From: Desulfovibrio sp. G11
GTDB lineage: Bacteria; Desulfobacterota; Desulfovibrionia; Desulfovibrionales; Desulfovibrionaceae
Assembly: GCF_900243745.1 (NCBI RefSeq)
Contig: NZ_LT984798.1
Coordinates: forward strand, 1,482,501-1,546,500
Length of the DNA: 64,000 bases
Direction: 5' to 3'
The notes below the pieces were generated by a model. The model saw nothing but the letters and a program-made list of their open reading frames with translations, did not search any database and was not told the origin of the DNA. Of this stretch, positions 30,421-41,761 are shown piece by piece. Numbering within the stretch: the stretch's first letter is position 1; each line of letters opens with the position of its first letter. The translations under genes and the position numbers were made by a program.

Positions 30421-31680
30421 CATTGCTGTCCGGCTAAGGGGTAACAAAAAAGTCCAAAATCTCAGCAGTATGTGGTATAAGAAGTTACCACAACAACTTG
30501 CCACACAAGGAGATTTTGGACTTGAGCCATCATACTACACTCTTCTCTCAACTGCTATCCCTGATACCGGGACATGTTTTTGAAAAACTCGAACGCAAGC
30601 ACAAAACTGGCCGCTCTTCACGCCAATTTGGATTCAAGGAGCAATTCACCGTCATGGCCTTTATCCAACTCGCTGCAAGGCGCTCTTTACGCGATGGGCT
30701 TCGCGCCTTGGAGGCGGCCAAGAGACGGCTGTATCACCTCGGCTTGAAATCAGTAGCGCGTTCCACGGTTGCCGATGCCAACAATTCAAGGCCTGTGGAA
30801 TTTTTCAAAGACCTGTTCGCTGAAATGTATGGCCTGTGCCATCTTCGTGCGCCTCGTCACAAATTCCGCTTCAAGTGCAAGCTGTACAGCATGGACGCCA
30901 CCACCATCAGCCTATGCCTGTCCATCTTTCCCTGGGCGTCGTTCCGGCGGAACAAGGCTGGCGTGAAAGTAAATACCGTGCTTGACCACGATGGCTACAT
31001 TCCCGCTTTTCTCGATATCAACAATGCCAAAACCCACGAAAGCCGCATGGCCAAAAGTCTTTCATTGCCAAAGGGTTCCATCGTCACCTTCGATAAAGGC
31101 TATATCTGCTATTCCTGGTTTCGCATGTTGACCGCGAAGGGCATTTTCTTCGTAACCCGACTGAAGAGCAATGCTGCCTATAAGCTCGTTGATCGCCGCG
31201 CCGTAGACCGGAAAACCGGGGTCACGTCCGATCACATCATTGACGTGAGCAGCCGGGGAAAAACCACTCGTCTACGCAGAATCGGCTATCGCGATGCGAA
31301 AACCGGCAAACGGTACGAATTTTTGACCAACCATTTCCGCCTGTCCGCCAAGACAATTGCTGATATCTATAAAGAACGCTGGCAAATTGAAATATTCTTC
31401 CGCGAAGTCAAACAAAATCTGCATATTAAAAGCTTTGTCGGGCGCTCGGAGAATGCGGTGCACATCCAGATTTATACGGCCCTGACCGTGTATTTACTCC
31501 TGGCCTATCAGAAATTCCTGAGCAAGCTTGGGCTGTCGGTGCAACAACTCTCCGAGCTCATTTGCTTGAATCTGTTCGGCAAGGATTCTCTGGAAGAACT
31601 TCTGAATCCACGAAGACGAAAAACTATAAACACCTATAGTTATAGCCTGTTAGCTATGGGTGCTTAACCGGACAACATTG
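30421..31680 (+). mobile_element. Complete IS4-type insertion sequence, 1260 bp
   Basis: The boundaries are set by imperfect terminal inverted repeats: CATTGCTGTCCGGCTAAGG at the left and, read inward from the right, CAATGTTGTCCGGTTAAGC (15 of 19 identical). Both are bounded by a perfect 9-bp direct repeat, AGAGCGCAT. The element carries one intact DDE transposase. It lies in a gene-poor stretch and interrupts no recognisable gene. The clean duplication suggests relatively recent insertion. Confidence 0.95.
30522..31667 (+). CDS. IS4-family DDE transposase
   Basis: Start chosen at TTG 30522 (LSHHTTLFSQLL as MSHH), 9 nt after AAGGAG; the frame extends 8 codons further upstream. The 381-residue protein has an N-terminal DNA-binding region (GRSSRQFGFKEQFTVMAF) and the RNase-H-like catalytic core. 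The first Asp is in YSMDATTISL and the second in VTFDKGY. The Glu lies in the IS4 signature YKERWQIEIFFREVKQ (Y-R-E-K). It should carry out cut-and-paste transposition. No frameshift or stop interrupts it. Confidence 0.95.
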   Translation: MSHHTTLFSQLLSLIPGHVFEKLERKHKTGRSSRQFGFKEQFTVMAFIQLAARRSLRDGLRALEAAKRRLYHLGLKSVARSTVADANNSRPVEFFKDLFAEMYGLCHLRAPRHKFRFKCKLYSMDATTISLCLSIFPWASFRRNKAGVKVNTVLDHDGYIPAFLDINNAKTHESRMAKSLSLPKGSIVTFDKGYICYSWFRMLTAKGIFFVTRLKSNAAYKLVDRRAVDRKTGVTSDHIIDVSSRGKTTRLRRIGYRDAKTGKRYEFLTNHFRLSAKTIADIYKERWQIEIFFREVKQNLHIKSFVGRSENAVHIQIYTALTVYLLLAYQKFLSKLGLSVQQLSELICLNLFGKDSLEELLNPRRRKTINTYSYSLLAMGA

Positions 31681-34861: not shown

Positions 34862-37800
34862 TCAGGATTTGCCCCTTGGTTTTTCCTCCGGCCCTGGCGG
34901 CAGCAGGGAAAGGGAGCGCACAAGCGTCTGCCTGTGCGGGGTCAGGACGCTCTGGCGGCAGCAATGGCGTATCTGCTCAAGAAAGGGCGAAGGCGGCAGG
35001 GCAAGGCTTTTTCCGTACAGGGTGCGCCTGGCGCTGTGACTCACAAAAAGCGCGCGGGCGGCACGGGTCAGGGCCACATAAAGCAGGCGGCGTTCTTCAT
35101 CTTCCTGTTCCGGGGCCTCATACTCGTTTGCGGCAGGCCCGGCGTCAGTGCGTGCGGTGTCAGCTACGGTCGGGGCGATGGCATCAGCGGTGTCGGCGTT
35201 GCTGTTGCCCGTATTCCTTGCCGCCCCCGTGATCGTATCCGTGGCCGGGCCGAAAAGCATATCACGGCGCAAAGGCAGCAGGCCGTCCTCAAGGCCGGGC
35301 AAAAAGACTGCCTGGAATTCAAGTCCTTTGGATGCGTGCATGGTCATGATCTGCACATGCTCGGCCTTGTTGCGCACCATCTCTGTTTCCTGCAGCCATG
35401 CCAGATGGTGCAAAAATTCCTGCCAGCTTTCCTGTTCTTTCCAGCTTCGTTTCAGTTCGCGCCAGGCCCGCCCGGTAAGCAGTACCTCGCCTGCCCAGTT
35501 TTGTCCGGCCAGCCAGCTTTCCAGATCGCCCGGGGGGGGCAGGGGACCGGCAGCGGCAAAGGGATTGTCTGTCGCGGTATCCAGATCTTTTTGCAAGCTT
35601 TGCTGCGGCGTGGCTGCATCAAATACCTGTGCCAGCCCGGAAAAACCACAATGCACCGCGGCCAGTGCAAGCAGCCGGGCGCAGGCGGCATCCTGCCAGA
35701 AGGCTTCTTCGACCGGGGCCGAACAAGGAATGCCAGCCTGCTCCAGCGCGACCTTCAGCGGGGGTATCTGTGCGCGCAGGCGCACAAGAACGGCAATATC
35801 GCCGGGGGCAAGCGTTCCGTCCAGTTCGTGCGCTTCGGCGCTGTTCTGCTGCTGATCCAGCAGAGTATGGCCTGTGGCCCCAAGCAGGGCCTGCACCCGG
35901 CGGCTTATCCAGCGCAGTTCGGCTTGCTGGTCCGGTGCGGAAAACAGGCGCAACTGCGCATTGAGGCTCTGTGCCGCGGTGAGGGGGCCGCATTGCCCTT
36001 TGTGGAGCAGCAGGCTGTGCGCCATGTTCAGCACTGCCTGGCTGGAGCGGAAGCTGCGGCCGAGGCAGTAAACAGACAGCCCGGGCCATATGGAGCGCAA
36101 GCTGGCCTCGCTTTGTCCCGACACGCCGCGAAAGCCGTAAATGGCCTGATCCGGATCGCCGATGCCGAAAAAACCGGAACCGTCAGGCGGCAGCATGCCT
36201 CGTATGATATCAAGCTGCACGGGTGAAAGGTCCTGCACTTCGTCCACCAGCACATGTTGCGGCAGCATGTCGCGCGGCAGGTCATCCAGATGGTCCAGCC
36301 ACCAGTCCAGCAGGTCTGCGTAGTCGACATAGCGAAAGTCCGGCTGTTCGGCCTTGCGGGCCGTATAGCGGGCGGCAGCCAGCTCAAGCGCGGCATGCCC
36401 TGCGTGCAGGGTGTGACGTGTTTCGCGCGCCAGAGAAAGCTGGCGCCACAGTTCGCGCGCCTCGCGTGCCTGCAGTTGCGGGTTGGCAGCCATGAAAAAA
36501 CGCAGGGCGGCGTCTTCGCCAAGCAGCAGGCATTCTTGCCCCTGAGCCTGGGTGACAGCGCGCATTCGGCCCCATGCCAGGCCGTGCAGGGTGTCGCAGC
36601 AGGGCAGGTCCTGCATGTGCGGCAAGGCAGCGGCAAGGCGCTGGCGCATTTCATTGGCGGCGCGGCGCGTAAAGGTAACGGCAAGCAGTTTGTGCGGCGC
36701 TGTACCCTGATCAAGCAGGTGCTGGATGCGGCCCACAAGCACACGTGTTTTACCCGCGCCGGGACCGGCCTGCACCAGCACCGGACCGGGTCCGGCCACA
36801 AGGGCCTGATACTGTTCTTCGCTGAAGGACCCTGTGCCGCCTGATGCTGGCGTGCCGTGCCCCGGCTGGCCGGCTTGGGAGGGCGAGGCTGCGGCGGGCC
36901 GTTCTTTCATGAGGTCCAGCATGTTCACCGAGGCTGCCCTGGTCCGGCGCATTTTGACTGCTGGGGCTGTACCGGTGGCACTGTCGCCGGTGATTTTGGC
37001 GGCGTCAGCCGCGCTCGGCCCGGCCTTGCGGCTTTTGACAGGGGCAAGGCCGGGCAGGGCGCCGCGCCCAGCGCCACGCCAGGTATTGCGTATGTCGTCC
37101 AGTTCTTCAGGCGTAAAAACACGCACCACACCGTATTCGCCGTCGTATCCGCCCTGGCGGAAGACCTGCCCCCGGCGCATGCGGGCCACGGCTTCGCCCA
37201 GCGGCTCCCAGTGGTCGCGTATTTCCTGCTCGGGCATGCGGCAAAGAATGTCCAGCTCCGGGCCAAGCTCGCGCAGCAGGCTGCCATAGCGCTCCTGCAC
37301 CCTGCGTGATGCGATGCCCACGCCCAGAATTTCTCCCACCACTTCGGGCAGAGGTATAAGCGGCCGGGCTTCAGGTTCATGCGGAAGCTGGGGTGACTCT
37401 TCCCTGTCGGCCAGTTCCCATACGCGGTGCAGCACGCCCACAGTGAGCGGTTTGCCGCATACAGGGCAGATATTGCCGAGCTTGCGTGATTCTCTGGGTT
37501 CCAGAACCACGTTGCAGGCGCGGTGGCCGTCCAGATGGTATTTGCCTTCGTCCGGGTAGAATTCCATTGTGCCGAGAAAGCGGCAGTCCAGGGCATCCTG
37601 CGGCTGACGGCGAGCCGCCGTGCGTAACGCTTCAAACATGCCGGCATAGGAGGGACGCCCCGCAAAAAGATTGGCCTCGCGGCCCAGGTTGGCTCCGGAA
37701 TGCGCATCTGAATTGGATACAAGGGCGTAGCCATCGAGCTGACTGACCAGGCGGTTCATCTCCGGGTCGGAAGAAAGGCCGGTTTCAAGGGCAAAAATAT

Positions 37801-38386
37801 GTTCCGAAAGGTCGCCGTAGCAGTCGGTCAGGCGGTCAAAGCCGGACTTGGAGCCAAAAAGCGCGAACCAGGGGGTCCATATATGGGCGGGAATCATCAC
37901 GGAGTCTTCGGCGCATTCCAGCATGATCTCCAGCAGGTCGCGCGAGTCAAGGCCGAGAATGGGCCTTCCGTCCGAGTGCAGGTTGCCGATCTGCTCGAGG
38001 CGCAGCGAAAGCCTTTCGGCATCTTCAAGCGTGCGTACGAAAATGAGATTATGTACCTTGCGCACCTTGCCGTGCCGTTTGTAGATGGAGCTGATCTCGG
38101 CCTGAAGCATGAAAAGCGGCTTTTCGGCACTGCCGTCGCCCATATGCCCGCCGGCCATGACATCAAGCTCTTCCGGCTCTCCTTTGAGGCGGTACAGGCC
38201 GCTGGATTCGTCCAGCTCAAGCTGCTCTGAAAGTTCCGCCCGCCACTGCGGATGGGTGAAGTCGCCCGTGCCAAGAACGCCGATGCCTTTGCAGCGCGCC
38301 CACGCGGCCAGATGGCGGGCATTGAGGGCCTTGCTGGTGGCACGGGAAAAACGGGAATGGATGTGCAGGTCGGCTATGAAATTCAT
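34862..38386 (-). CDS. EndoQ-like PHP nuclease fused to a UvrD/Rep-type helicase
   Basis: Start chosen at ATG 38386 (MNFIADLHIHS), 13 bp after the upstream stop; the earlier ATG 38434 would overlap that gene. Of 1174 residues, 1-430 match the EndoQ/TIGR00375 pattern: PHP metal motifs DLHIHS (6-11), GTGDFTH (39-45), AHIWTPW (167-173) and SNSDAHSG (224-231), zinc-binding Cys at 291, 307 and 310 (ICPVCGKPLTVG), and the closing GGYDGEYGVVRVF. A Pro/Ala-rich linker (~440-520) leads to a superfamily 1 helicase: QAGPGAGKT (539-547), LVDEVQDLS, GIGDPDQAIYGFRG, MTMHASKGLEFQ, YVALTRA. EndoQ nicks DNA 5' to deaminated bases, so the fusion probably joins nicking to unwinding. This coupling is inferred. 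It ends a four-gene operon. Confidence 0.88.
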   Translation of the reverse strand: MNFIADLHIHSRFSRATSKALNARHLAAWARCKGIGVLGTGDFTHPQWRAELSEQLELDESSGLYRLKGEPEELDVMAGGHMGDGSAEKPLFMLQAEISSIYKRHGKVRKVHNLIFVRTLEDAERLSLRLEQIGNLHSDGRPILGLDSRDLLEIMLECAEDSVMIPAHIWTPWFALFGSKSGFDRLTDCYGDLSEHIFALETGLSSDPEMNRLVSQLDGYALVSNSDAHSGANLGREANLFAGRPSYAGMFEALRTAARRQPQDALDCRFLGTMEFYPDEGKYHLDGHRACNVVLEPRESRKLGNICPVCGKPLTVGVLHRVWELADREESPQLPHEPEARPLIPLPEVVGEILGVGIASRRVQERYGSLLRELGPELDILCRMPEQEIRDHWEPLGEAVARMRRGQVFRQGGYDGEYGVVRVFTPEELDDIRNTWRGAGRGALPGLAPVKSRKAGPSAADAAKITGDSATGTAPAVKMRRTRAASVNMLDLMKERPAAASPSQAGQPGHGTPASGGTGSFSEEQYQALVAGPGPVLVQAGPGAGKTRVLVGRIQHLLDQGTAPHKLLAVTFTRRAANEMRQRLAAALPHMQDLPCCDTLHGLAWGRMRAVTQAQGQECLLLGEDAALRFFMAANPQLQAREARELWRQLSLARETRHTLHAGHAALELAAARYTARKAEQPDFRYVDYADLLDWWLDHLDDLPRDMLPQHVLVDEVQDLSPVQLDIIRGMLPPDGSGFFGIGDPDQAIYGFRGVSGQSEASLRSIWPGLSVYCLGRSFRSSQAVLNMAHSLLLHKGQCGPLTAAQSLNAQLRLFSAPDQQAELRWISRRVQALLGATGHTLLDQQQNSAEAHELDGTLAPGDIAVLVRLRAQIPPLKVALEQAGIPCSAPVEEAFWQDAACARLLALAAVHCGFSGLAQVFDAATPQQSLQKDLDTATDNPFAAAGPLPPPGDLESWLAGQNWAGEVLLTGRAWRELKRSWKEQESWQEFLHHLAWLQETEMVRNKAEHVQIMTMHASKGLEFQAVFLPGLEDGLLPLRRDMLFGPATDTITGAARNTGNSNADTADAIAPTVADTARTDAGPAANEYEAPEQEDEERRLLYVALTRAARALFVSHSARRTLYGKSLALPPSPFLEQIRHCCRQSVLTPHRQTLVRSLSLLPPGPEEKPRGKS

Positions 38387-38399
38387 ATGCGGTTCTCTG

Positions 38400-39491
38400 T
38401 CATGATGCGGTGAAAAGAGCACTGTCGCCGGCATCGTTCCGGCTCAGCCAGGGGCAAAAGCGCAGCGCTTCGGCTGTCCACAGCGGCTTGGCATCGGGAG
38501 AATCGCCGTGCAGGCACAATGGTGCTTCAAGTACCGTGTCGTGGACCGCATTTTTGCGTGATTCTACCAATATTCGCAGGGCAGGGCCGCCCGCGCGGGC
38601 ATGCACGGGCAGAATACGCCTGATCCCAAAGCGGGCCGCCTGCATGGCGGCGCACAGCTGCGGCAGGGCGCGAGCGTCATGAATACAGAAGAAATATCCC
38701 TGATGGCGCAACAGCATGGCGGCGGCACGGCAGAATGTATCCAGCACCTTTTCTCCGCCAGCGGTGTTGCCGTTTCCGCGCAGGGCGCGCTCTCGCATGG
38801 CCCGGGGCGAAGGGCGGCCCCCGGTATCGTACGGGGGGTTGGCCATGACGATGTGCTGGTTTCCGGCCAGTCGTCTTGCGCCCGCCGGGCTGGCTTGCGT
38901 ATGCGGTAGCGCAGGAACGGCAAGGGCGGCCAGAGCTGACCTGTCGGCGATGTCCAGCATGGCAAAGCGCGCTTGCCCGGACGGAGCGGTCACCCCGTCA
39001 AGCCCGTCCAGACTCGCCGTCATATCTGGCAGATCGGATACATCGGGCAGGCCGACATGGCCGGACAAGCCCAACAGGCGAGCATTGCGCCGCGCCGCCT
39101 GTACCAGCGGCTCTTCACGCTCAAGACCCAGCCCCGCCACCTGCGGGCAGCGCAGGGCCAGGGCCAGCAAGGCCGCGCCACAGCCGCTGCCAAGCTCCGC
39201 AACAGGCACAGGGGTCAGTCCGGGAGACCGCGCAAGGGATCCGCCAGCCGCGTATCTGTGTTTTTTTGCTTCCAGATGCCGCGTAACAAAGGCTGCCAGC
39301 AACAGCGCGTCCGCACCAAAGCGAAGGCTGCCCTCGGGCTGTTCCAGCCCGGCCGGAAAGCGCGCCCGGGCGCTCATGACATCATGTGGCGCGGCATATT
39401 GCGTCATCGTCACTGTGTGCCGCCGTGTTGCGGACGTACCTTGTGTTGCGCGCCGGGCAGCGGCCTTTGCTGCCGCCCGGGCATATTCCAT
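38400..39491 (-). CDS. N6-adenine-type methyltransferase, TrmN6-like
   Basis: The 363-residue frame starts 5 bp after the U32 gene stop. The first ~35 Ala/Arg-rich residues may not be native; ATG 39407 or 39380 are alternatives, since family homology begins near FPAGLEQPEGSLRFGADALL. The SAM motif is VAELGSGCGAALLALAL and the catalytic motif is NPPY (IVMANPPYDTGG), typical of N6-adenine methyltransferases. The fold and spacing resemble TrmN6/YfiC, which methylates A37 of tRNA-Val. A loop around residues 150-200 is enlarged and Ala/Pro-rich. Substrate is inferred from family only. Confidence 0.8.
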   Translation of the reverse strand: MEYARAAAKAAARRATQGTSATRRHTVTMTQYAAPHDVMSARARFPAGLEQPEGSLRFGADALLLAAFVTRHLEAKKHRYAAGGSLARSPGLTPVPVAELGSGCGAALLALALRCPQVAGLGLEREEPLVQAARRNARLLGLSGHVGLPDVSDLPDMTASLDGLDGVTAPSGQARFAMLDIADRSALAALAVPALPHTQASPAGARRLAGNQHIVMANPPYDTGGRPSPRAMRERALRGNGNTAGGEKVLDTFCRAAAMLLRHQGYFFCIHDARALPQLCAAMQAARFGIRRILPVHARAGGPALRILVESRKNAVHDTVLEAPLCLHGDSPDAKPLWTAEALRFCPWLSRNDAGDSALFTAS

Positions 39492-39496
39492 ATTGC

Positions 39497-41761
39497 TTAC
39501 AGCAATGAGCCGTCCCAGTTGAACAGGCTTTCGCGCCGCATGTCGGGCAGGCTGGCTGGCGGGTTTTCCTGCATGTGCGCAAAAAATCCGTAGCCCGCGG
39601 CGGCCATTTCCTGCCTTTTGGCGGTGAGGTCAAGAGGCCAGCCGGGATATATCCAGATATTGCCGCCGTACTGCCGCGCCCAGAAAGGCTCGCCCTTGGG
39701 ACTCAGGAACGGCTCGTTGGTCTTGACGCCAAGCAGGCCGAAACGGCTCAGTCCCACAGGCCAGAAGCCGGAAAGCACCGCGCCAAGGGGCAAGGGGCTT
39801 TGGCGGGGCAGGGCCAGCATTTCTTCACGCGGCAGTTCCGGGCTTACAAACGCTCCTGTAAAGCCCATGCCTGCCAGTATGCCCAGGGCAGGGGCATTGG
39901 CCGCGTTGCAGAACGGCCCCACCAGCAGATCGGCGTTTTCGTCCAGACTGTCGGGGAACAGGCCGCGCTGCCACGGCTCGTTACAGACAAAGTGACGCGC
40001 ACCGTCACGCCAGAGGTGCGCAACGCTGCGGCGCAGGGTTTCTTCTTCGCCGGGCCAGACCACGGGCGGCAGCCACCAGCAGATGCGCTGCACCACCGTG
40101 CGCGAGATGTCGGCGCTGCGGGGCGAAAGCCAGAGGGCCTGCAACTGGTTTTTACCGCCGCGCATGTCTTTGCCCTGCGGAATGCTGGAGCGGACGTACA
40201 TGTCCGGGCGGGGTCTCGGCCTGACGGGTGCAGGCATACGCGGGCTGGATTCCACGGCCTTGCTCTGGCGGCCGGGAAACTGGTCAAGGCGTGCCTGCCA
40301 GCTTTTGAGAATGCGCATAAGCTCCGGCTCGCGCCGGTCAATAAGAAAAACGGACGTGCCCGCTTTGGGCGTTTTGTGCTTGGGCAGGCGCATGATGAGG
40401 CTGCCGCCTTTGGGAATACGCCTTGTCACGGGCAGGGTGGCATGCCAGCGCTCGTCTTCCACGCCCACGCGCAGGTAGTCCTGCGGCAGCAGTTCCAGGT
40501 GGGGTTTCAGCACCACGCTGCCGTCCTGCTCGATGCGCAGTTTGCCCGCCAGAAGGCCGGAACTGGTCTGGCCGTCGGGCGTGGTAGGCACGGTATTGTC
40601 TTTCTGCGGCAAAAAACGTGCCCGGGTGGCCGGACGGCCCAGGGCCATCTGAAGGATTTCTTCAGCGGTCTTGCGGGCCTTGGGGTCGCCGGGATTATCA
40701 CGCAGCATGCGATAGGCCGTGACCACATGATAAACGTAGTGCGGCCCTTTCTTGCGTCCTTCAATCTTCCAGGAAACGAGGTGGGGGATGTCCAGCAGTG
40801 TTTTGGCAAGCACGTCAAGGGAAAGGTCAAGGCAGGAAAACCAGCGCCCGCTGTGTTCCTTGCGGCCGGGACCGCGCATGCTTCCCTGCCGGCCGGAGCG
40901 CCCCCGGCCATGGGCAAGGGCGGCGGCTTCATTGCGGTCATGTCGTCCATCACGGCGGCCGTCGCCACGGTCGCGGGTGTCACGTGAACCCCGGCGATCC
41001 TTGCGCGCGATATCCATGCGGGACTGTTCCTGCCGGGCGCGGTCCATTTCTTCCCGTTCCGCATTGCGGACAAGGGCCAGCGCAGCGGGGCCGCCCTGGC
41101 GGTAGACGCGGCGGCAAGGCTGCACACAACGGCCGCGCAGGCCACTTTTGCCGCCCATATAGCTGGACCAGTAGCAACGGCCGGAAACGCAATAGCACAA
41201 AGCACCGTGCACAAAGCACTCAAGGTCAAGCCCTTCGGGGCAGGCTTCGCCCATGAGGCGTATTTCGTCAATGGAAAGCTCACGCGGCAGGATAACGCGG
41301 CTGGCCCCAAGCTTTTTTGCTTCCACAAGGGCGTCGGGATGCGTGAGGTTGGCGAGGGTGGAAAGAAAAATGCCGCCCTCAAAACCGGCCTGGCGCGCCA
41401 GATCGAGTATGGCAAGATCCTGCACGATAAGGCCGTCCGGGCGCACCTGGGTTGCCAGCCGCTTGGTGAGGCGGTAGGCGGCGGCAGGCTCGTCCGGCTT
41501 GATAAGCGTATTCATGGCCACATAAACGCGGGCATTTTCGGCATGGGCCAGGTCGGTCAGGCGTGAAAGTTCGGTCAGGCCGAAGTTTTCGGCCTGCATG
41601 CGCGCCGAAAAATGCTTGAGGCCCAGATAGATGGCGTCTGCCCCGGCAGCCAGTGCTGCCAGAAAAGACGGAGTGTCTCCTGCAGGGGCCAGAATTTCCG
41701 GCCGGGCCGGAGTGGGAACAGTAACAGCGCCAGACGCCGGAATAATTGAAGAATCACTCAT
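39497..41761 (-). CDS. U32 family protein (RlhA/TrhP-type RNA hydroxylation) with Arg/Asp-rich insert
   Basis: The 754-residue protein begins with the U32 core (EILAPAGDTPSFLAALAAGADAIYLG in several conserved blocks). Cysteines at 182, 189, 191, 196, 212 and 216 (CFVHGALCYCVSGRC, then RCVQPCR) match the Fe-S ligands of RlhA/TrhP proteins, which hydroxylate rRNA or tRNA using prephenate. Residues ~223-305 are an insertion rich in Arg, Asp and Gly (RRGSRDTRDRGDGRRDGR) that splits the core just after the cysteine cluster. The core resumes at WKIEGRKKGPHYVYHVV. It overlaps the epimerase gene by 4 bp. Older annotations call this a collagenase-like peptidase. Confidence 0.87.
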   Translation of the reverse strand: MSDSSIIPASGAVTVPTPARPEILAPAGDTPSFLAALAAGADAIYLGLKHFSARMQAENFGLTELSRLTDLAHAENARVYVAMNTLIKPDEPAAAYRLTKRLATQVRPDGLIVQDLAILDLARQAGFEGGIFLSTLANLTHPDALVEAKKLGASRVILPRELSIDEIRLMGEACPEGLDLECFVHGALCYCVSGRCYWSSYMGGKSGLRGRCVQPCRRVYRQGGPAALALVRNAEREEMDRARQEQSRMDIARKDRRGSRDTRDRGDGRRDGRHDRNEAAALAHGRGRSGRQGSMRGPGRKEHSGRWFSCLDLSLDVLAKTLLDIPHLVSWKIEGRKKGPHYVYHVVTAYRMLRDNPGDPKARKTAEEILQMALGRPATRARFLPQKDNTVPTTPDGQTSSGLLAGKLRIEQDGSVVLKPHLELLPQDYLRVGVEDERWHATLPVTRRIPKGGSLIMRLPKHKTPKAGTSVFLIDRREPELMRILKSWQARLDQFPGRQSKAVESSPRMPAPVRPRPRPDMYVRSSIPQGKDMRGGKNQLQALWLSPRSADISRTVVQRICWWLPPVVWPGEEETLRRSVAHLWRDGARHFVCNEPWQRGLFPDSLDENADLLVGPFCNAANAPALGILAGMGFTGAFVSPELPREEMLALPRQSPLPLGAVLSGFWPVGLSRFGLLGVKTNEPFLSPKGEPFWARQYGGNIWIYPGWPLDLTAKRQEMAAAGYGFFAHMQENPPASLPDMRRESLFNWDGSLL

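Follow-up and report, generated by a model that had tools for sequence, protein, structure and literature searches.

An EndoQ-type module joined to a UvrD-family helicase in Desulfovibrio sp. G11: a candidate enzyme for the repair of deaminated bases

EndoQ incises DNA 5' of uracil, hypoxanthine, xanthine and apurinic/apyrimidinic sites, according to a 2015 paper in which a helicase step following EndoQ and EndoV was also proposed (PMC4357722). The archaeal enzyme is stimulated by the sliding clamp PCNA through a PCNA-interacting protein (PIP) box, and clamp motifs were reported in 2016 for bacterial EndoQ, with Bacillus subtilis and Desulfovibrio named as carriers (PMC4858679). Here we describe a gene of Desulfovibrio sp. 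G11 that encodes, in one chain, a predicted EndoQ-type module followed by a predicted helicase of superfamily 1A (SF1A). The gene lies in a 64,000-nucleotide stretch of contig NZ_LT984798.1 (positions 1,482,501 to 1,546,500), which was analyzed as a whole and is referred to as the window; all coordinates are those of this stretch.

The window protein resembles archaeal EndoQ (PfuEndoQ, TkoEndoQ; PDB 5zb8, 7k30-7k33) in whole-length fold, metal site and base-selection residues; the archaeal form also makes use of a clamp-binding tail (the PIP box). The archaeal enzyme, however, has no helicase and a four-Cys zinc site where the window protein has a His and three Cys, and the two share only about 30% identity. 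The stand-alone EndoQ of Bacillus and many Desulfobacterota consists of the same module (about 42–55% identity for the Desulfobacterota forms compared), has a His-x2-Cys zinc element in 23 of 23 cases and mostly ends in a QxxLF motif, but is unfused, the helicase being encoded elsewhere in eight of 14 genomes. With the SF1A helicases UvrD, PcrA and Rep the C-terminal part has in common the fold, all SF1A motifs and the expected 3'-to-5' motor; it differs from them in forming a separate clade, in a Phe for Trp exchange in motif III, in the EndoQ module at its N-terminus and, in most copies, in a C-terminal clamp-type motif. AddA, RecB and the Gabija protein GajB are also UvrD-superfamily motors paired with a nuclease, but the nucleases and roles are different ones and the similarity is weaker. 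Finally, the 2015 model of EndoQ, EndoV and a helicase likewise envisages removal of a patch by a helicase after the EndoQ cut; in the available portion of that paper no particular helicase is named, whereas in the window's genome a helicase forms part of the same chain and no EndoV is detected.

Both parts belong to known kinds, and bacterial EndoQ was already known. In the open-licence papers searched, we found no description of the fusion, of a dedicated helicase clade, of its co-occurrence with EndoQ, or of the double motif. The 2015 paper does, however, show drawings of the domains of bacterial homologs and refers to Desulfovibrio, so that some of these findings may have been noticed earlier.

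The gene and its two modules

The gene is a single, intact open reading frame (ORF) on the minus strand, the longest reading of which (38434-34862) encodes 1190 amino acids (aa); residue numbers throughout follow this frame. We prefer 34862-38386 as its coordinates because the alternative ATG at 38386 (residue 17, MNFIADLHIHS), which gives 1174 aa, coincides with the N-termini of most relatives and is preceded by an AGAGAA stretch. A preliminary description, made from the DNA letters, had noted a fused ORF at this place, and the frame is indeed real and open; all the named motifs (DLHIHS, TGD, NSDAHS, CPVC, GGYDGEYG, AGPGAGKT, DEVQD, GDPDQAIYGFRG, HASKGLEF and VALTRA) were found. A chance match is excluded by the combination of the PfuEndoQ match (E 7e-47), the PF00580 and UvrD_C matches (E 7e-35 and 7e-28) and 199 residues that are at least 90% identical across 35 fused proteins from many families. 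We also rejected an assembly or frameshift artefact, as the identical open architecture is found in many genomes.

34862..38386, minus strand: entire EndoQ-helicase fusion gene (ORF of 1174 aa, ATG 38386 to stop codon; start common to relatives)

The best solved relative of the N-terminal module is PfuEndoQ (5zb8), which it matches over nearly the whole EndoQ length. In an AlphaFold2 model built with 51 fused relatives (mean predicted local distance difference test score, pLDDT, 81.8; predicted template modeling score 0.57), residues 17-448 superimpose on 5zb8 with Z 45.9 and a root-mean-square deviation of 2.2 over 386 of 398 residues (VIA-align), so that the whole-chain EndoQ fold, zinc and C-terminal domains included, is present in the model. 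UvrD structures and PfuEndoQ ranked top in Foldseek, PfuEndoQ with a template modeling score of 0.88 of target. Sequence match and fold agree in ruling out another PHP family, and the EndoQ identity proposed in the preliminary description is upheld, with the mappable catalytic and base-discriminating residues conserved. The profile TIGR00375 was matched as well, but with 155.9 bits, below its curated cut-off of 326.6, which was exceeded in none of 149 genomes of the window's family, the Desulfovibrionaceae, and in none of 394 genomes of the phylum. Because neither the window protein nor the surveyed genomes reach this cut-off, we file the module as EndoQ-type and outside TIGR00375.

In Pfu EndoQ, the catalytic zinc is held by E76, H84 and H139, alanine mutants of which are dead, and T and A are excluded from the pocket by H139, G169 and S171 (review PMC8307549, from which we took the residue roles). 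Pfu H84, H139, G169 and S171 correspond to H128, H184, G219 and S221 of the window protein, none of which varies among the 110 fused and 23 stand-alone proteins compared. D243 and H245, which align with the PHP-type metal site, are invariant too, as is E113, the putative counterpart of E76 by position only, since Pfu residues 57-80 fell outside the sequence alignment. While CPVCG is kept, the first Cys of the four-Cys zinc element is replaced by H304, an exchange that is also seen in nearly all bacterial relatives examined; His is able to bind zinc.

37091..38386, minus strand: predicted EndoQ-type module, residues 17-448
38354..38371, minus strand: PHP motif I, DLHIHS (D22, H24, H26), aligned with Pfu D6, H8 and H10; present in 99% of fused and all stand-alone relatives
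38051..38053, minus strand: H128, aligned with Pfu H84, predicted zinc ligand (H84A abolishes activity; PMC8307549)
37883..37885, minus strand: H184, aligned with Pfu H139, predicted role in zinc binding and base selection (PMC8307549)
37706..37708, minus strand: D243, aligned with Pfu D193 (Asn at the same position in PDB chain 7k31)
37457..37525, minus strand: predicted zinc-binding element H304-x2-C307...C323-P-x-C326, aligned with PfuEndoQ, the first Cys of which is replaced by His

The C-terminal part, which had been taken for a complete SF1 helicase, proved to be one of the SF1A type: it matches PF00580 (121 bits) and UvrD_C (PF13361; 98.5 bits), both above the gathering cut-offs, has the full set of SF1 motifs, and adopts the UvrD fold in the model (residues 534-1165 against Deinococcus radiodurans UvrD 4c30: Z 40.6, VIA-align). 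Residue F768 of motif III, at which E. coli UvrD (GDDDQSIYGWRGA) and Rep (GDDDQSIYSWRGA) have Trp, is invariant in 51 fused proteins, and the remaining SF1 motif residues are likewise invariant among fused proteins. Equivalog scores fell short of their cut-offs for PcrA (185 of 911 bits), UvrD (164 of 1144) and Rep (161 of 951). In the helicase trees, the copies described below, whether fused, adjacent or free, group together in a single clade to which UvrD, PcrA and Rep do not belong (supports 97 and 99; 92 in a control tree), and by this phylogenetic measure the helicase is a distinct clade outside all three. Separate UvrD-type paralogs are encoded in the window's genome.

34937..36835, minus strand: UvrD-family SF1A helicase module, residues 534-1166
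36746..36769, minus strand: helicase motif I (Walker A), AGPGAGKT, residues 556-563; G557, P558, G559, G561, K562 and T563 invariant
36230..36244, minus strand: helicase motif II (Walker B), DEVQD, residues 731-735; D731, E732, Q734 and D735 invariant
36125..36160, minus strand: helicase motif III, GDPDQAIYGFRG, with Phe for Trp

Residues 456-534, which link the modules, and the last 24 residues have pLDDT values below 50 and are probably disordered, to judge from the model, in which the position of one module relative to the other is not reliable. A motif of the type Q-x-x-[LMI]-F ends 18 of 20 stand-alone EndoQ proteins (within 40 aa; shuffle maximum 4). Among fused proteins outside the Desulfovibrionaceae and their nearest allies, a clamp-type motif was found in the linker of 50 of 86 (shuffle maximum 12) and within 20 residues of the C-terminus of 71 of 87 (shuffle maximum 10). 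The corresponding numbers for the Desulfovibrionaceae and allied families, in which the linker motif has been lost, are 0 of 24 and 17 of 24. On the simplest reading, the linker motif would be the former C-terminus of stand-alone EndoQ, while the terminal motif would belong to the helicase, because the separate genes of a Nitrospirota locus (L200, see below) show just such an arrangement. The window protein itself lacks a linker motif, and its tail, SLSLL, does not conform to Q-x-x-[LMI]-F. Its congeners have PLSLL (L112) or keep QISLF (L110, L111), a recent decay of the clamp-type tail inside a single genus.

36833..37069, minus strand: linker predicted to be disordered, residues 456-534; presumed place of the clamp motif that once ended EndoQ, which this family lacks
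34901..34918, minus strand: degenerate C-terminal β-clamp-type motif RSLSLL, by comparison with congeners (QISLF in two)

Distribution of the fusion and partnership of its parts

The fusion is not peculiar to this lineage; its architecture is old and widespread: it is near-universal in the window's family, where 120 of 121 near-complete genomes have a match, most frames exceeding 1000 aa, and it extends to at least 14 bacterial phyla. Of 394 genomes from the phylum as a whole, 263 have a match, and both fused and stand-alone forms are among them. Scanning genome contigs yielded 80 loci, 78 of them with both modules in one ORF, from Thermodesulfobacteriota, Bacillota, Actinomycetota, Bacteroidota, Planctomycetota, Gemmatimonadota, Chloroflexota, Spirochaetota, Elusimicrobiota, Melainabacteria, Binatota, KSB1, Latescibacterota and Pseudomonadota. 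Several of these loci come from metagenome-assembled genomes (MAGs); isolates include Geobacter argillaceus, Moorella stamsii, Micromonospora, Salinispora, Propionispora and Desulfonema magnum. No relative was detected in viral contigs scanned with the EndoQ module, and an earlier viral-contig scan with helicase patterns gave helicase matches only.

On an EndoQ tree rooted with PfuEndoQ, all fused proteins fall into one clade (support 95), with the stand-alone forms branching outside it; the Desulfovibrionaceae and allied families form one clade. The fusion appears to have arisen once on this tree, from a stand-alone EndoQ. Three later separations from the helicase lie inside the fused clade (G446, G262 and the genus g40). 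Both the EndoQ and the helicase trees are quick ones, the root position and deep order of which are only moderately supported.

The association of the two parts is not confined to the fusion. In the Nitrospirota MAG locus (L200:5583-8816), a 423-aa EndoQ (ending in GQGTLF) and a 650-aa helicase (ending in QMGLF) are encoded by adjacent genes about 10 bases apart; this EndoQ branches immediately outside the clade of fused proteins. Furthermore, free helicases of the EndoQ-associated clade (498-656 aa, most with a QxxLF-type ending) were found in eight of 14 genomes with stand-alone EndoQ outside the family, as compared with none of 20 EndoQ-negative genomes of the phylum, 30 helicases of which were placed on the tree (Fisher p = 1.7e-4, a value that is only indicative because the genomes are related). 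In the sampled flanks of stand-alone EndoQ genes from Desulfobacterota, no helicase gene was detected (blastp, 1e-5); the free copies lie elsewhere. Because EndoQ and this helicase are repeatedly found fused, adjacent at L200, or as separate genes of the same genomes, we consider them partners.

Two further arrangements were observed. At an Oscillospiraceae MAG locus within the fused clade (L178:5515-8688), the fusion is divided into ORFs of 464 and 583 aa, 27 bases apart, which may reflect a recent split or a frameshift. The helicase half has been lost in g40, a genus of the window's own family (L124, L125, L126, L127).

Other repair genes and the neighborhood

None of the repair genes Ung, Nfi (EndoV) and Nfo, the lack of which had been suggested as a point to check, is recognizable in the window's genome. 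A match to the uracil-DNA glycosylase (UDG) superfamily is missing there and in 15 congeners, while 13 of 14 control genomes were positive; no EndoV was found in this genome or in the sampled congeners; and Nfo has no match in this genome, in which Xth is present. Across the family, 41 of 149 genomes have a UDG match, and EndoV was matched in two of 119 genomes. EndoQ would then be the only initiator of deaminated-base repair in the window's genome among the families searched, of which divergent enzymes could have been missed.

Outside the family, 240 genomes match both EndoQ and UDG, 120 UDG only, four EndoQ only and 11 neither. Because this association is positive, EndoQ is not a general substitute for Ung; with 240 of the 244 EndoQ-positive genomes also UDG-positive, we rejected the idea that EndoQ has simply taken the place of Ung throughout the phylum. 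Within the genus g40, UDG is matched in G086, which has no EndoQ, and in G039, the EndoQ frame of which contains an internal TAG, while G067 and G101, in which a stand-alone EndoQ is intact, do not appear in the set of UDG-positive genomes; replacement cannot be proved from only four genomes. In the family f25, for which EndoQ gave no match, the frames that match UDG are 611-741 aa long (G233, G278, G336, G374, G410, G426, G442, G521), which suggests a UDG fused to something else.

The genes flanking the fusion include a U32 peptidase gene and an epimerase gene, neither of which is a defence gene. Upstream on the same strand (38400-41761) lie a methyltransferase-like ORF without a Pfam match and the U32 peptidase gene. 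We rejected a conserved operon, as these two stay in order only in near relatives. An intact DDE transposase gene with DUF4372 is located about 3 kb from the fusion gene (30498-31667).

A proposed repair route and its alternatives

We consider it fairly probable, from the conserved residues and the predicted fold, that the protein combines two activities and repairs deaminated bases independently of a glycosylase, in a process in which an EndoQ nick would be followed by opening of the patch by the helicase and by clamp-linked synthesis. The EndoQ module would flip out uracil, hypoxanthine or a similar lesion and cut directly on its 5' side, so that the lesion strand would be left with a 3'-OH and a 5'-phosphate, as has been established for archaeal EndoQ. 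The tethered SF1A helicase would then load at the nick. UvrD, PcrA and Rep move 3' to 5', and behind rolling-circle nickases Rep and PcrA track the intact strand and displace the 5'-ended one; a motor of the UvrD type would accordingly use the intact strand as its track and displace the 5'-ended strand led by the lesion. A polymerase would extend the 3'-OH across the opened patch, and in most relatives the C-terminal QxxLF motif, often together with that of the linker, would tether the enzyme to the β clamp. A 5'-flap nuclease would presumably remove the displaced lesion and a ligase seal the strand. In Desulfovibrio, where neither UDG nor EndoV nor (in the window's genome) Nfo is detectable, the fusion would be the main initiator of uracil repair.

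The preliminary interpretation stands only in part. The EndoQ-type and SF1A identities are borne out, and so is the lack of a recognizable Ung, EndoV and Nfo in the genome; the fusion is, however, not peculiar to this lineage, and EndoQ does not generally replace Ung. To call the protein a self-contained excision machine is overstated, as incision and unwinding still need a polymerase, a 5'-flap nuclease and a ligase, and a 3'-to-5' motor would strip off the damaged strand, as stated there, only by moving along the undamaged one.

Several observations weigh against the proposed route. The TIGR00375 score is less than the curated cut-off, and one zinc ligand differs (C to H), though this is common to nearly all bacterial relatives examined. 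The clamp motifs of the window protein are degenerate, which makes the clamp step weakest for this very protein. As EndoQ runs without a helicase in the genus g40, the helicase is dispensable there. Outside the window's family EndoQ mostly co-occurs with UDG, and the single origin of the fusion leans on the moderate branch supports of a quick tree.

The helicase might instead act before the cut, exposing single-stranded DNA at forks or in transcription bubbles, in which the EndoQ module would find deaminated bases. EndoQ does cut uracil and hypoxanthine in single-stranded DNA (PMC11354406), clamp motifs would position the enzyme at forks, and the long flexible linker permits either order of action. 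However, EndoQ binds bent duplex DNA, its archaeal and stand-alone bacterial forms work without a helicase, and no sequence feature favors unwinding first; we regard this order of events as unlikely. Still less do we expect that the PHP module has drifted to another activity, on DNA ends or 3'-phosphates, as an accessory nuclease of a general UvrD-like repair helicase. While the functional diversity of PHP domains, the TIGR00375 score and the distance from the characterized archaeal enzyme would allow this, the base-pocket and active-site residues of EndoQ are invariant, and the structure matches the whole EndoQ chain including its C-terminal domains.

A role in defence, in which the helicase would drive the degradation of foreign DNA containing uracil or other deaminated bases (phages with uracil-containing DNA, or phage DNA attacked by deaminases), seems to us very improbable. 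An antiviral role for bacterial EndoQ has been suggested in a review, and the helicase part matches GajB profiles in PADLOC. This match, however, is one of UvrD-type helicases in general, none of the PADLOC models is matched by the EndoQ part, and identity with Gabija GajB was rejected, the nuclease being of the EndoQ and not the GajA type. Moreover, the near-universal presence of the gene in its family is unlike that of patchy defence genes, the EndoQ tree unites the Desulfovibrionaceae and allied families in a single clade, and the U32 peptidase and epimerase genes nearby are not defence genes.

Returning to nick-initiated repair, we see about equal grounds for belief and doubt in a broader proposal, namely that EndoQ and its dedicated SF1A helicase, both with clamp-type motifs, constitute an undescribed bacterial pathway that is glycosylase-free, helicase-assisted and clamp-coupled, and that would be the principal route of uracil removal in Desulfovibrio. 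EndoQ emerges as a broadly distributed bacterial family rather than a chiefly archaeal one with a few bacterial strays. What follows incision by EndoQ has been unsettled ever since the enzyme was discovered in 2015, and for this step a fused, genomically associated helicase that forms a subfamily by itself is a concrete candidate. Genera without a recognizable Ung are suited to a clean genetic study of glycosylase-independent uracil repair. Together, the fusion, its distribution and the clamp-type motifs suggest a widespread route of DNA repair that operates without a glycosylase.

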